This document shows positions 14,054 through 35,390 of a stretch of 64,000 nucleotides of DNA, in pieces. The notes below the pieces were generated by a model. It ran no database searches and had not been told where the DNA came from. It worked only from the letters and a program-made list of their open reading frames with translations. Source of the stretch: an uncultured Rhodobacterales bacterium (GTDB taxonomy: Bacteria > Pseudomonadota > Alphaproteobacteria > Rhodobacterales > Rhodobacteraceae); contig CAIQOV010000026.1 of the NCBI GenBank assembly GCA_903873585.1, positions 62,001 to 126,000 on the forward strand. The letters are read 5' to 3'. A program made the translations under genes and the position numbers. Each line of letters begins with the position of its first letter. Positions within the stretch are counted from its first letter, which is position 1.

Positions 14054-15346
14054 ATGGTTGATCTTGCGACACGGGTGTGGAATCACCGCTGGAAAATTGA
14101 CCCGATTGTGCGGTCTTTGATCGACACCGACTTTTACAAGCTGTTGATGTGCCAATCCATCTTTCGCAACCGCCGCGACACCACGGTGGAATTCAGCCTG
14201 ATCAACCGCAGCCCGAAAATCCGTCTTGCAGAACTGGTGGACGAGGGCGAGTTGCGCGAGCAGTTGGATCATGTGCGATCTTTGTCGCTGTCGCGCGGCG
14301 AAAGCACGTGGCTGCGTGGCAATATGTTTTACGGCAAACGCCAGATGTTCCGCCCCGATTTCATGGAATGGTTCGAAGGCTTTCGCCTGCCGCCCTATCA
14401 TCTGGAAAAGCGCGATGGCCAATATGAGCTGACCTTTGAAGGCGCTTGGCACGAGGTGATGTTGTGGGAAATTCCCGCCCTTGCCGTGCTGATGGAACTG
14501 CGCGGTCGTGCCGTCTTGCAAAAGCTGGGGCGGTTTGAGCTGGAAGTGCTGTATGCCCGCGCCATGACCAAGCTGTGGGAAAAGATCACCCGCTTGCGCG
14601 CGATTGACGGGCTGCGCATCGCCGATTTCGGCACCCGTCGCAGGCACTCGTTCCTGTGGCAGGATTGGTCGGTGCAAGCGATGATGGAGGGGCTTGAGAA
14701 CCGCTTCACCGGAACCTCAAACTGCCTAATCGCGCAGCGCCGCGATATTGAAGCCATCGGCACAAACGCCCACGAACTGCCGATGGTCTATGCCGCCTTG
14801 GCCGAAAATGATGAGGATTTGGCCCGCACGCCTTACCAAGTGATGGCCGATTGGCAAGACGAACACGATGGCAACCTGCGCATCATTCTGCCCGATACTT
14901 TTGGCACCGAAGGCTTCCTGAAACGCGCGCCCGACTGGTTGGCATCTTGGACGGGTATTCGCGTTGATAGCGGCGATCCGGCCCGTGCGGCGGAAGTGGC
15001 GATCAAATGGTGGGCGGAAAAAGGCGAAGACCCGCGCCAAAAGCTGGTCATATTCTCGGACGGGTTGGATGTGGGCAAGATCGAAGACCTGCACCGCCAA
15101 TTTGTCGGCCGCATCAAAGTGTCGTTTGGCTGGGGCACGATGCTGACCAATGATTTCAGCGGCTTGGCCGATTCTGATGCGCTGGCGCCGTTTTCCTTGG
15201 TGTGCAAAGCCGTGGCGGCTAATGGGCGGCCTACAGTGAAATTGTCTGACAACCCCAACAAGGCCATGGGCCCCGCTGACCAGATCGAACGCTATAAACG
15301 GGTGTTCGGGGTTGGAGCGCAGCAGGGGCAAGACGTGATCGTGTGA
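14054..15346 (+). CDS. pncB: nicotinate phosphoribosyltransferase
   Basis: A 430-aa enzyme that joins nicotinate to PRPP, with ATP, to give nicotinate mononucleotide. Signature segments are LIDTDFYKLLMCQSIF at the N-terminus, DFGTRRRHSFLWQ (phosphoribosyl binding and regulatory His), FTGTSNCLIAQRRDIEAIGT, WTGIRVDSGDP and VSFGWGTMLTND. The last is the type-II phosphoribosyltransferase phosphate loop region. AAGGAG precedes the ATG by eight bases. With pncA it forms the Preiss-Handler entry from nicotinamide. Its TGA is directly followed by the stop of convergent arfB, with no base between. Confidence 0.96.
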   Translation: MVDLATRVWNHRWKIDPIVRSLIDTDFYKLLMCQSIFRNRRDTTVEFSLINRSPKIRLAELVDEGELREQLDHVRSLSLSRGESTWLRGNMFYGKRQMFRPDFMEWFEGFRLPPYHLEKRDGQYELTFEGAWHEVMLWEIPALAVLMELRGRAVLQKLGRFELEVLYARAMTKLWEKITRLRAIDGLRIADFGTRRRHSFLWQDWSVQAMMEGLENRFTGTSNCLIAQRRDIEAIGTNAHELPMVYAALAENDEDLARTPYQVMADWQDEHDGNLRIILPDTFGTEGFLKRAPDWLASWTGIRVDSGDPARAAEVAIKWWAEKGEDPRQKLVIFSDGLDVGKIEDLHRQFVGRIKVSFGWGTMLTNDFSGLADSDALAPFSLVCKAVAANGRPTVKLSDNPNKAMGPADQIERYKRVFGVGAQQGQDVIV

Positions 15347-15769
15347 TCACTCTTCGTCTTCGGGCGTTTGGCGGCCATCTTTCACCGCGCTGCGCACCTT
15401 TTTGGCGACCAACCGGCGTTGAATGCTGCCATATGTCGGCTTGGTCGCCAGCCGCCGTTTGGGGGCAATCAGCGCTTGGCGAATCATCTCGACCAGCCGT
15501 TCGCGCGCCAATTCGCGGTTTTGCGCCTGACTGCGGGTTTCTTCCGCCTGAATGACAATCGCGCCTTCATTCGTCCACCGCCGCCCTGCCAGCCGTTTCA
15601 GGCGGGCTTTCACGGCGGGGGTCAGGTTTGGCGAGCGTTCCGCTTCAAACCGCAGCTCTACCGCAGTTGAGACTTTGTTAACGTTCTGCCCACCAGGGCC
15701 AGAGGCGCGGACGAATTGTTCGCTCAACTCCCAGTCGGCGATCTGGATCGTGTCGGTGATGTGCAGCAT
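15347..15769 (-). CDS. arfB: alternative ribosome-rescue factor / peptidyl-tRNA hydrolase
   Basis: A 140-aa class-I release-factor-like protein that hydrolyses peptidyl-tRNA on ribosomes stalled without a stop codon. The GGQ motif is at residues 26-28 in VRASGPGGQNVNKVSTAVEL. The C-terminal tail is basic (KRRLATKPTYGSIQRRLVAKK), as expected for insertion into the empty mRNA channel. There are no codon-recognition domains, as in ArfB/YaeJ. The start is only 19 bp beyond a terminator hairpin that ends a structured leader on the same strand. Expression therefore probably depends on readthrough of that terminator. The ribosome site GGCGAAG is weak. Confidence 0.94.
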   Translation of the reverse strand: MLHITDTIQIADWELSEQFVRASGPGGQNVNKVSTAVELRFEAERSPNLTPAVKARLKRLAGRRWTNEGAIVIQAEETRSQAQNRELARERLVEMIRQALIAPKRRLATKPTYGSIQRRLVAKKVRSAVKDGRQTPEDEE

Positions 15770-15788
15770 GTCGCTTCGCCATAAGAGA

Positions 15789-15813
15789 AAGGGTCGCCTA
15801 AGCGGCGACCCTT
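15789..15813 (-). terminator. intrinsic terminator/attenuator between leader and arfB
   Basis: AAGGGTCGCC and GGCGACCCTT form a perfect 10-bp stem around a 5-nt loop, followed leftward by TCTCTTAT. It sits just before the arfB start and after the leader ORF, so it looks like an attenuator. The U-run is short and interrupted. Confidence 0.75.
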
Positions 15814-15883
15814 CCCGAGTTCCAAGGAGATGGGCCAGTTAGGGCATCCATCCAACCTGTGGCCGTTTACCAAGGGGCTGCCC

Positions 15884-15940
15884 TTAGAAAACGAAACCTC
15901 CGGCTGTCCCGACACCTCTCTCCAATATCACTCTAGACAC
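15884..15940 (-). CDS. 18-codon leader ORF upstream of arfB
   Basis: GTG at 15938-15940 opens a frame of 18 codons, MSRVILERGVGTAGGFVF, ending with TAA. It is preceded by AAAGGAGGTGA, almost the full complement of the 16S rRNA 3' end, at seven bases spacing. This is the strongest ribosome site I noticed in the window. The peptide resembles no protein I know. Its position before a hairpin and terminator suggests that the act of translation matters more than the product. It could also be a chance frame inside a non-coding RNA. Confidence 0.5.
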   Translation of the reverse strand: MSRVILERGVGTAGGFVF

Positions 15941-15975
15941 TGGGTCACCTCCTTTCGAATTGGTTATCGATACAG

Positions 15976-16005
15976 GTAGGTTGGCACATATTTTGTGTTT
16001 GTCAA
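15976..16005 (-). promoter_or_regulatory. candidate promoter of the arfB leader
   Basis: On the minus strand a perfect TTGACA (16000-16005) lies 17-18 bp before a weak -10 (AACCTA or ACCTAC). It is placed just after the yhhQ stop codon, so the leader could be transcribed independently of yhhQ. The -10 is poor, hence low confidence. Confidence 0.4.
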
Positions 16006-16011
16006 AACCTT

Positions 16012-16632
16012 TTACGCAAGCCTTATGGCAAATCTTGCAACAATCAGGCGAAACGGCAGCAGGCCGAACAAAGCGATCCCAAATTTTACGCACCAGTCGG
16101 CCACAGCCAGCGAAACCCATAGGGGAACCACTGGCCCGCTGCCCAACAAGGGGCCTTGCACGGCGGCCCAAGAGACATCGCTGGAAGGTTCCAGAAAGGT
16201 CAGGCTGGCGGCGAAAGCGATGGTGAAGAAGATCACGCTGTCGATGGTTGACCCCATCAGGGTGGAAACCAACGGCGCGCGCCACCATTCGGCACGGCGC
16301 AGGCGGTCAAAAATCGTCACATCCAGCAATTGGCCGACAAGGAATGCCGTGCCCGACCCAAGGGCCACGCGCAAGGTGACAAGCGGGCCGTATTCGTTGT
16401 GCAGTTGCGTGCCGATGAACGAACACACCAACCCCACCACAAACCCCGCCAAAACCACCCGCCGCGCCGCTTTCACGCCCGCCAATCGGTTGATGATGTC
16501 ATTGACCAGAAACGACAGCGGGTAGGTAAAGGCGCCATAGGTCAGATAGGTGCCAAAGGTATGTTGAACGAGGATATTCGAGGCCACAACGATGGCGGCC
16601 ATGGCAAGTATGCCAGCAATCAGAGTTTTCAT
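16012..16632 (-). CDS. yhhQ: queuosine precursor transporter
   Basis: A 206-aa inner-membrane protein of the YhhQ/DUF165 family with about six membrane helices. Typical stretches are AAIVVASNILVQ, GAFTYPLSFLVNDIINRLAG (the conserved YPxxF...D region), STLMGSTIDSVIFFTIAFA and VADWCVKFGIALFGLLPF. The family imports preQ0/preQ1 for queuosine synthesis. The start at 16632 is preferred over an upstream in-frame codon because the upstream sequence forms a preQ1-I-like riboswitch that would occlude GGAA before this ATG. The riboswitch supports the substrate independently of homology. Confidence 0.9.
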   Translation of the reverse strand: MKTLIAGILAMAAIVVASNILVQHTFGTYLTYGAFTYPLSFLVNDIINRLAGVKAARRVVLAGFVVGLVCSFIGTQLHNEYGPLVTLRVALGSGTAFLVGQLLDVTIFDRLRRAEWWRAPLVSTLMGSTIDSVIFFTIAFAASLTFLEPSSDVSWAAVQGPLLGSGPVVPLWVSLAVADWCVKFGIALFGLLPFRLIVARFAIRLA

Positions 16633-16640
16633 GATCCATT

Positions 16641-16670
16641 TCCGTTTTTTACAAGGTCGCGGAGACTTGG
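16641..16670 (-). promoter_or_regulatory. preQ1-I riboswitch aptamer upstream of yhhQ
   Basis: Read on the minus strand: stem CAAG/CTTG (16666-16669 with 16652-16655), a C-rich loop TCTCCGCGAC, then the A-rich tail TAAAAAACGGA. Tail CGGA pairs with loop UCCG (16660-16663) as an H-type pseudoknot. This is the preQ1-I architecture: short stem, C-containing loop, then a U-A6-C tail that closes the pseudoknot. The tail overlaps the GGAA ribosome site 8 to 12 bases before the yhhQ start, so ligand binding should block translation. The P1 stem is one pair shorter than usual. Confidence 0.78.
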
Positions 16671-16736
16671 TCCTCCCCATGAGGACGGCGGCTTTTGACG
16701 CGCAGGCGCGGGTTTGTCAACTGGGGCGCTGGGCGG

Positions 16737-34189: not shown

Positions 34190-35335
34190 TTATTGCGCTG
34201 CGATTTCGGCGTGGAAGGCGTAGGCGATCCACGGCAGCAGGGCCGCGACATCGGCGGATTCCACTGTTGATCCGCACCAGATGCGCAGCCCGGGGGGGGC
34301 ATCGCGGTAAGCGCCCATATCAAAGCCCGCACCCGCTTTTTCGATGCGCTTGGCCACAGCCTTGGCAAAAGCAGCGCCGTCTTTGATGCGCGGGTCGGTG
34401 AATTTCAAACAGACCGAGGTGGTGGAAGCTGTGGCAGGCACCTCGGCCAGATTGGTGATCCACGGGGTGGCGGCGCAGAAATCCCACACGGTTTTGGCAT
34501 TGGCGCTAGCCCGCGCGATCAGGCCCTGCAAACCGCCCACAGATTGCGCCCATTTCAGCGCCACAAGGTAATCTTCCACCGCCAGCATGGACGGGGTATT
34601 GATCGTCTCGCCTGAAAAGATCCCCTCGATCAGCTTGCCCTTGGATGTTAGGCGGAAGATTTTGGGCAGGGGCCAAGCGGGGGTGTAGCTTTCCAACCGC
34701 GCCACAGCACGGGGCGATAAGATCAGCATGCCATGCGCGCCTTCACCCCCCAGCACTTTTTGCCAAGAAAAGGTGGTGACATCCAGCTTGTCCCACGGCA
34801 AATCCATCGCAAAAGCGGCAGAGGTGGCATCGCAAATCGTCAGCCCAGCGCGGGTGGCGGGGATGGCGTCGCCGTTGGGCAGGCGGCAGCCCGAAGTGGT
34901 GCCGTTCCATGTAAAGACAACGTCGCTGTCAAAATCCACGGTCGCGAAATCGACGATCTGGCCATAGGGCGCGATCTGGACCTTGGCATCCAGCTTAAGC
35001 TGCTTGACCACATCGGTCACCCAGCCTTCGCCAAAGCTTTCCCATGCCAGCATCTCTACCGGACGCGCGCCCAGCAACGACCACAGGGCCATTTCGACAG
35101 CGCCGGTGTCAGATGCGGGCACGATGCCAATGCGGTAATCGGCTGGCACGCCCAGAATTTCACGGGTGAGGTCAATCGCCTCGGCCAGCTTGGCTTTGCC
35201 AATGGCCGCGCGGTGCGAGCGGCCTAAGGGCGCATCGCCCAGCATTGACAGGGAAAAGCCGGGGATCTTGGCGCAAGGGCCAGAGGAAAAACGCGGGTTT
35301 GCCGGCAGCACTGCCGGTACTTGCAGATCAGACAT
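34190..35335 (-). CDS. serC: phosphoserine aminotransferase
   Basis: A 381-aa class-V PLP aminotransferase that makes 3-phosphoserine from 3-phosphohydroxypyruvate and glutamate. Markers are [15 protein letters not shown] at the N-terminus, [47 protein letters not shown] and [20 protein letters not shown], which contains the PLP Lys. It belongs to the longer alphaproteobacterial SerC type. GAAGGA precedes the ATG. It leads the leftward serC-serA unit and is divergent from serB, so all three serine genes share one locus. A possible leader RNA precedes it. Confidence 0.97.
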
Positions 35336-35390
35336 GGTATCCTTCCAGATAAATGCCCCCCGGTGGGGAGGGGTGTCCCACCGCTGGAAT
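35336..35390 (-). promoter_or_regulatory. candidate serC-motif leader RNA
   Basis: Upstream of serC on the minus strand a hairpin CGGTGGG/CCCACCG (35361-35367 with 35377-35383) is followed by CGGGGGGCATTTATCTGG and the ribosome site GAAGGA. A serC RNA motif is known as a 5' UTR element of alphaproteobacterial serC genes, with hairpins next to the ribosome site. I cannot verify the consensus from memory, so this is a candidate by position and structure. Confidence 0.4.

Follow-up and report, generated by a model that had tools for sequence, protein, structure and literature searches.

What is the role of the short, densely structured RNA that is encoded, together with its own ribosome site, ORF and terminator, just upstream of arfB? 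The question is raised by a stretch of 64,000 nt from an uncultured Rhodobacterales bacterium (contig CAIQOV010000026.1, positions 62,001 to 126,000 of the forward strand), referred to hereafter as the window. A sequence-only reading of the locus had proposed a transcription attenuator, in which translation of the short ORF would decide whether transcription runs on into arfB, a ribosome-rescue gene. The anatomy behind that proposal was confirmed on the minus strand, in the order TTGACA, ribosome site, 18-codon ORF, hairpin on the stop codon, 10-bp terminator and arfB behind. Here the locus was compared with its counterparts in Rhodobacteraceae and in the class.

Anatomy and conservation of the locus

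The RNA lies on the minus strand between a gene for a VUT family transporter (16012..16680; Pfam Vut_1, E 1.4e-28), the role of which we take to concern queuosine precursors, and arfB (15347..15769, ATG at 15769; 140 aa, Pfam RF-1 domain, E 1.3e-22). Beyond arfB, a nicotinate phosphoribosyltransferase gene (14054-15346, plus strand) is convergent with it, the two ends abutting at 15346/15347. The RNA has a promoter of its own, with TTGACA (16000..16005) as its -35 box; alignment points to CAACCT (15978..15983) as the probable -10 after a 16-nt spacer, and transcription probably starts near 15971. In 75 of 122 loci from the family an exact TTGACA was present at -52 to -45 of the extended Shine-Dalgarno sequence (SD), while 24 had five of the six bases and 23 had fewer; by our own reading, the -10 would be a weak CANNNT-like hexamer. 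A generic promoter/terminator scan reported neither a sigma-70 promoter at the RNA nor its terminator, the latter perhaps, as a guess, because the stem can extend into the T tract.

Within the transcript the extended SD, GAAAGGAGGTGACCCAG (15940..15956), complementary to the 3' tail of 16S rRNA at all but one base, is followed by the GTG start (15940) of an 18-codon ORF, VSRVILERGVGTAGGFVF (15884..15940). The ORF ends with TAA at 15886-15884, and the position of this stop is kept in the family. The SD core, AAGGAGGTG (15946..15954), forms the 5' strand of a closing helix (helix 1), the 3' strand of which is an internal anti-Shine-Dalgarno segment, CATCTCCTT (15824..15832). Enclosed by this helix are a local hairpin in which the start codon is hidden (helix 2, 15921..15944), a helix that joins codons 12-14 (15900..15906) to 15852..15859 (helix 3), a hairpin on the stop codon (helix 5, 15872..15885) and a CUAAC motif (15838..15842) that is unpaired in the consensus fold. 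The intrinsic terminator (helix 6, 15783..15813) has a 10-bp stem, AAGGGTCGCC-gctta-GGCGACCCTT (15813-15789), with TTCTCTT directly after it. The 179-nt leader folded at -83.8 kcal/mol as compared with -62.5 +/- 4.5 kcal/mol for shuffled sequences (z -4.74). Elsewhere in the window, the only RNA match above a curated threshold was a serC leader (Rfam; 35332-35383, minus strand, 66.2 bits).

The leader was found in all 16 genomes of the genus, where it is visibly better conserved than the start of arfB and contains long runs of invariant columns. A covariance model built from it (R1) matched 173 of the 198 genomes of the family Rhodobacteraceae, once in 141 of these and two or three times in 32 (E <= 0.01). 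One strong second match (G199:C41:15045-15214, minus strand, E 4.6e-14) may be a second copy of the RNA. R1 was a weak detector across the class: its best match in other clades had an E of 4.5e-5, and several matches fell off the element. The 122 family loci used for counting comprise 15 from the genus, 28 further best matches, L078, and 78 of 80 taken from the next 82 in rank order; the window's own locus, L270 and L273 (SD unrecognised) and G083 and G146 (skipped in rank order) were left out.

The sequence-only reading had called for a check of the ORF, the hairpins and the terminator for conservation and covariation in Rhodobacteraceae. RNAalifold, applied to 59 family sequences (alignment A4, 59 of 108 usable family rows), returned 37 pairs, 21 of them with changes on both sides. 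When pairing in the family was counted without prediction, 95.8% of cells were paired, as compared with 41-54% when the partners were slid, and none of 500 shuffles reached A4 in any of five structure measures. Two-sided changes were seen at ten of the 11 stem pairs of the terminator, five of the seven pairs of helix 3, all three core pairs of helix 5 and two of the eight pairs of helix 2, in which 96.8% of cells were paired.

Neighbouring genes and the terminator

An attenuator is expected to have a constant downstream gene on the same strand and an antiterminator that excludes the terminator. The first expectation was not borne out across the loci. Among the 117 informative family loci, arfB was downstream in 103 and missing in 14 (five more loci were cut short), and 114 of 121 had the transporter gene upstream in the same orientation. 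In the 14 loci without arfB the next gene was clearly on the opposite strand in six and on the same strand in six; the call was unclear in two (L240 and L261), where the ORFs that were called are short or overlap the RNA. A set of 147 further loci, which partly overlaps the first and covers ~3 kb each for loci from the RF01867 search and at most 8 kb for the others, had arfB within these stretches in 16 of 20 Rhodobacteraceae-type loci and in one of the 127 others. That single neighbour, in the Hyphomonadaceae locus L133, is divergent, lying on the opposite strand ~145-590 nt upstream of the RNA. By a rough gene calling from ORF length and GC3, the next downstream gene shares the strand of the RNA in 58 of these 127 loci, lies on the other strand in 62 and was not called in seven; the figures for Rhodobacteraceae-type loci were 115, 20 and six. 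On these counts the RNA gene is independent, with strong local synteny in one family. The strength of the arfB and VUT synteny in that family is a point against an RNA wholly independent of arfB.

The second expectation was examined by folding. Keeping the 3' arm of the terminator unpaired cost a median of 19.7 kcal/mol, and never less than 12.3, in the free RNA; with a ribosome on the ORF the cost was a median of 19.1 and at least 9.7 kcal/mol (115 loci). With costs this high, no antiterminator was found by folding energies in these 115 loci, which counts against classical attenuation; a protein-assisted kind is beyond such energies.

The layout and the synteny do speak for regulation of termination before arfB by translation of the short ORF. 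Weighed against the cost of opening the terminator, the conservation of the RNA without arfB in the class and in 14 of 117 family loci, and the lack of a run of regulatory codons in the window's ORF on reading its sequence, this explanation is very improbable. As a general role, attenuation of arfB was rejected on the RNA's occurrence without arfB, the mixed strands of its neighbours (58 same, 62 opposite) and the costly terminator opening. What stands of the proposal, for most of the Rhodobacteraceae loci, is that arfB is preceded by a leader-like RNA, both conserved and structured, that ends in a terminator and contains a short ORF with signs of translation; the idea of the locus as a switch dedicated to arfB is corrected. 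Leader-peptide attenuators such as the Sinorhizobium trp leader, which yields the sRNA rnTrpL (PMC10117765, available part), likewise have a short ORF, a terminator and a free short RNA. They differ from the RNA described here, for which neither an antiterminator nor regulatory codons nor a constant downstream gene were found.

Another link to arfB would be a leaky terminator: most of the arfB mRNA of Rhodobacteraceae would then come from a fixed fraction of readthrough, with no regulated switch. With arfB next in 103 of the 117 informative family loci, readthrough into it is possible, and the median gap of 34 nt between the terminator and the next same-strand gene in Rhodobacteraceae-type loci makes it plausible, as there is little room for a promoter. 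However, 14 of the 117 loci lack arfB, in L080, L102 and L110 the open frame that holds arfB begins 812-894 nt past the SD, and leakage leaves the RNA itself unexplained. We regard a leaky terminator as a real possibility that falls short of probable; it is compatible with the reading of the RNA as a stand-alone gene that we favour below, under which arfB would do no more than receive readthrough passively.

The short ORF and its Shine-Dalgarno sequence

The sequence-only reading had taken the short ORF upstream of arfB to be translated, and the position of the stop codon supports this. Exactly 18 codons were present in 115 of 122 family ORFs. Codon 19 was TGA in 50 loci, TAG in 40, TAA in 25 and another codon in seven, but TGG in none, where ~17 would be expected by our own arithmetic if its second and third positions varied freely; among 120 distinct sequences the three stops numbered 50, 39 and 24, respectively. 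A Fisher p of 9e-14 for the codon-19 stops is indicative only, being inflated by the relatedness of the loci. The absence of TGG, together with the use of all three stop types, suggests that termination is selected. This is what is expected of a dual-function or otherwise translated sRNA, the ORF of which is under selection for translation. Similarly, a Sphingomonad-type group had 18 codons in 30 of 34 loci, ending in TAA (15), TGA (14) or TAG (1). Within clades the length of the ORF was thus constant while the type of stop codon changed.

The peptide is not kept in the same way. In the family loci, codon positions 1, 2 and 3 varied by 0.76, 0.75 and 0.78 bits, respectively, and the last residues were free; other clades had mostly different peptides, of 14 to 36 residues. 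A tiny protein-coding gene, with the peptide as its product, would account for the conserved start and stop, for VSR..LE..VGT, which recurs in Rhodobacteraceae peptides, and for the serine at codon 2, which was kept by four synonymous codons in 114 of the 115 18-codon ORFs and is itself at odds with a purely structural reading. Nevertheless, paired regions hold much of the conserved stretch, and with all three codon positions varying alike, the peptide was rejected as the main role of the locus; it is improbable as the product. We conclude that what is kept is, as far as sequence comparison can tell, translation over a set distance rather than a peptide product. Selected translation without a clear peptide constraint is new here, and an RNA found across many orders, with an ORF length fixed by clade and no fixed peptide, poses the question of what its translation is for. 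Seven Bradyrhizobium-type loci (L127, L137, L141, L145, L164, L186 and L191) carry a 14-codon ORF ending in KRCHLAGIAR.

The SD string complements the 3' tail of 16S rRNA. Its usual form in the loci of the genus and the class is GAAAGGAGGTGATCC, and the form in the window is one base off the perfect complement; AAAGGAGGTGA occurs once in the window's own 3.2-Mb assembly. The exact SD pattern was found in 27 of 190 genomes of the class, once in each, and its reversed control in none. The pattern AAAGGAGGTGATCC-N-DTG-TC was found in the genome collection at least 117 times, and by our own estimate a few chance matches are expected there. Among the 80 matches listed, two were labelled Gemmatimonadetes, three were labelled Proteobacteria only, and the rest bore alphaproteobacterial names; the loci drawn from the pattern include a few probable chance hits (e.g. 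L158 and L171). In the two metagenome-assembled genomes labelled Gemmatimonadetes (L087 and L118) the SD pattern precedes a TTG start and an ORF of 20 codons, which may reflect misbinning, transfer or chance.

An SD site is absent at the start of 75.4% of Caulobacter coding genes, and SD strength and translation efficiency are poorly correlated (PMC4117421, available part). Against that figure of 75.4%, an RNA that complements the 16S tail almost completely in many orders of the class is an outlier. The available part of the same source describes Caulobacter ncRNAs as mostly untranslated, which like the poor correlation is a point against the ribosome gate proposed below, but two previously predicted ncRNAs as translated (PMC4117421). 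An mRNA of Staphylococcus aureus offers a parallel, in that pairing with the 16S tail runs past the core SD (PMC13009471, available part); there two extra base pairs are added on an ordinary mRNA, whereas here ~16 bases of the tail are complemented on a small RNA.

CC2171, the closing helix and a possible ribosome gate

The window contains a full-length match to Rfam family RF01867 (CC2171), over model positions 1-159 of 159, at a permissive threshold (28.5 bits, E 6e-4), which is below the gathering cut-off of 75 bits. It is also no higher than a stray match on the opposite strand in L249 (28.5 bits). Across the class, 45 of 190 genomes matched RF01867 at E <= 0.01, and seven of the 190 exceeded the cut-off. 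Two of 14 control genomes matched, those of Caulobacter vibrioides and Deinobacterium chartae; the latter lies outside the Alphaproteobacteria and so counts against identity. When 11 chosen loci from Rhodobacteraceae, Sphingomonadales-type, Bradyrhizobium and Hyphomonadaceae were scanned with all of Rfam, CC2171 was matched end to end at the right place in ten of them, at 35.0-54.6 bits, and L039 gave no CC2171 match.

The likeness extends to architecture. Both RNAs have GAAAGGAGGUGAUCC followed by GUGUCU, a short ORF and a similar length, and in both a helix joins the initiation region to the segment before the terminator. An extended SD followed by NTG-TC, which is a feature of CC2171, was present, with an exception at the second codon in L062. 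In CC2171 the helix pairs codons 3-8 with GACAAUGGA before the terminator. A closing helix on codons 3-8 was seen in loci of other clades; Rhodobacteraceae, including the window, differ in closing on the SD, and the window differs also in scoring below the cut-off. We take the Rhodobacteraceae RNA and CC2171 to be one extended family, the window by itself being insufficient proof. A wide spread of CC2171-like RNA through the class beneath sub-threshold scores is new here.

CC2171, which reportedly received its name in a Caulobacter survey, is classed by Rfam as an sRNA gene. We found no function for it in the literature searched, of a coverage that mostly stops short of subscription journals. 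In the available parts of these sources, a match in Mesorhizobium huakuii is listed without function (PMC5596092), RF01867 is among the families with an improved structure (PMC11701678), and nothing relevant to the RNA appears in PMC5082802. An Rfam entry for which no function was found thereby becomes a testable system in Caulobacter or Rhodobacter.

The closing helix was assessed in both groups. In Rhodobacteraceae, C[A/G][C/U]CUCC pairs with the SD to form helix 1, and the seven-pair core of this helix was paired in 99.3% of cells. As there is hardly any variation on the SD side, its changes were one-sided only (e.g. G-U/G-C). In 37 sequences from other clades the helix lies on codons 3-8, pairing CAUUGUC with GACAAUG or CAUGGUU with GACCAUG; 97.7% of cells were paired, and 14 cells had two-sided changes. 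In the alignment of these sequences (A5, built on 37 of the 62 rows usable in the SHG and SHx groups, with the 27 rows of the SS group left out), shuffles did equally well in two of the five structure measures (259 and 199 of 500, respectively). This fold-back of the 3' end on the initiation region, at a site that differs between clades, is likewise new here.

Single sequences were folded as well. The pooled loci numbered 268, with 263 distinct cores (five pairs had identical sequences), and the 15 without a recognised terminator were excluded from the fold counts. A closing helix of at least five pairs formed in 214 of 253 loci, and in 370 of 1012 control sequences in which the interior had been shuffled. 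The Rhodobacteraceae-type loci accounted for 132 of 134 (controls, 161 of 536); elsewhere the helix formed in 82 of 119 (controls, 209 of 476), a modest excess. No closing helix of this length was present in the single-sequence folds of seven Bradyrhizobium-type loci, and these predictions imply that a gate in that type, if there is one, must differ.

Two features mark the 3' segment. It resembles the 16S tail, with a mean match score of 10.2 out of 15 as compared with 8.0 in shuffles, a resemblance that any pairing with the SD would entail. In addition, 104 of 114 family loci have CUAAC, in most cases 10-11 nt ahead of the closing segment, as compared with 142 of 2280 shuffles; the motif is a possible binding site.

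We favour, tentatively and at a little under an even chance, a stand-alone sRNA gene of ~185 nt that has a promoter and a terminator of its own and represents CC2171 in Rhodobacteraceae in a divergent form; its product would be gated by ribosomes. The alignments establish a conserved -35 box, a terminator, an SD complement, a kept start and stop and a 3' fold-back; from these we infer the gate and the output. Without a ribosome the RNA would be closed, its SD held on the 3' segment and its start codon in the local hairpin. Owing to the exceptional SD, a 30S subunit could hold its own against the closing helix, and once the set length was translated, helices 1-3 would melt and the 3' segment would be freed. 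This segment, made up of CUAAC and the anti-SD-like C[A/G][C/U]CUCC, would be the active part; most simply, it would pair with other RNAs, or else its release might expose the RNA to a nuclease. If translation opens the RNA in this way, the RNA would report translation capacity.

A more ambitious form of this proposal makes the RNA a class-wide sensor of ribosome availability. The ribosome and, in Rhodobacteraceae, an internal imitation of the 16S tail would compete for the SD, the outcome would determine whether the anti-SD-like arm is freed to act on mRNAs, and the peptide would be waste. We consider this form somewhat unlikely.

An ordinary sRNA, or one stabilised by translation, would dispense with the gate: the ribosome would protect the RNA or delay its decay without controlling an active segment. 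Anti-SD-like sequence is a common type of small-RNA seed. The 3' part of the RNA is of this kind, and the strong SD, the kept start and stop and the lack of peptide constraint fit such an RNA equally well. It leaves unexplained, however, why the initiation region is paired to a terminator-adjacent segment in several clades, and we judge it unlikely, if less so than a peptide gene.

The type I toxin mRNAs hok and AapA are inhibited by fold-back. The RNA resembles them in architecture only, in that its SD is shut by its own structure. SD-sequestering hairpins are described for a toxin mRNA in the available part of PMC6733600. A conserved toxic peptide distinguishes that class from the RNA described here, in which codon positions vary alike and clades differ in peptide.

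Translated small RNAs have been seen in Sinorhizobium meliloti, where some annotated sRNAs have a translation efficiency of at least 1 and where annotated sRNAs contain 33% of the 54 translated sORFs that were newly seen (PMC10117765, available part). The highest translation efficiency there belongs to SEP1, of 23 aa (PMC10117765, available part). SEP1 may be related to the ORF of this RNA, a lead that comes from its description rather than from its sequence.
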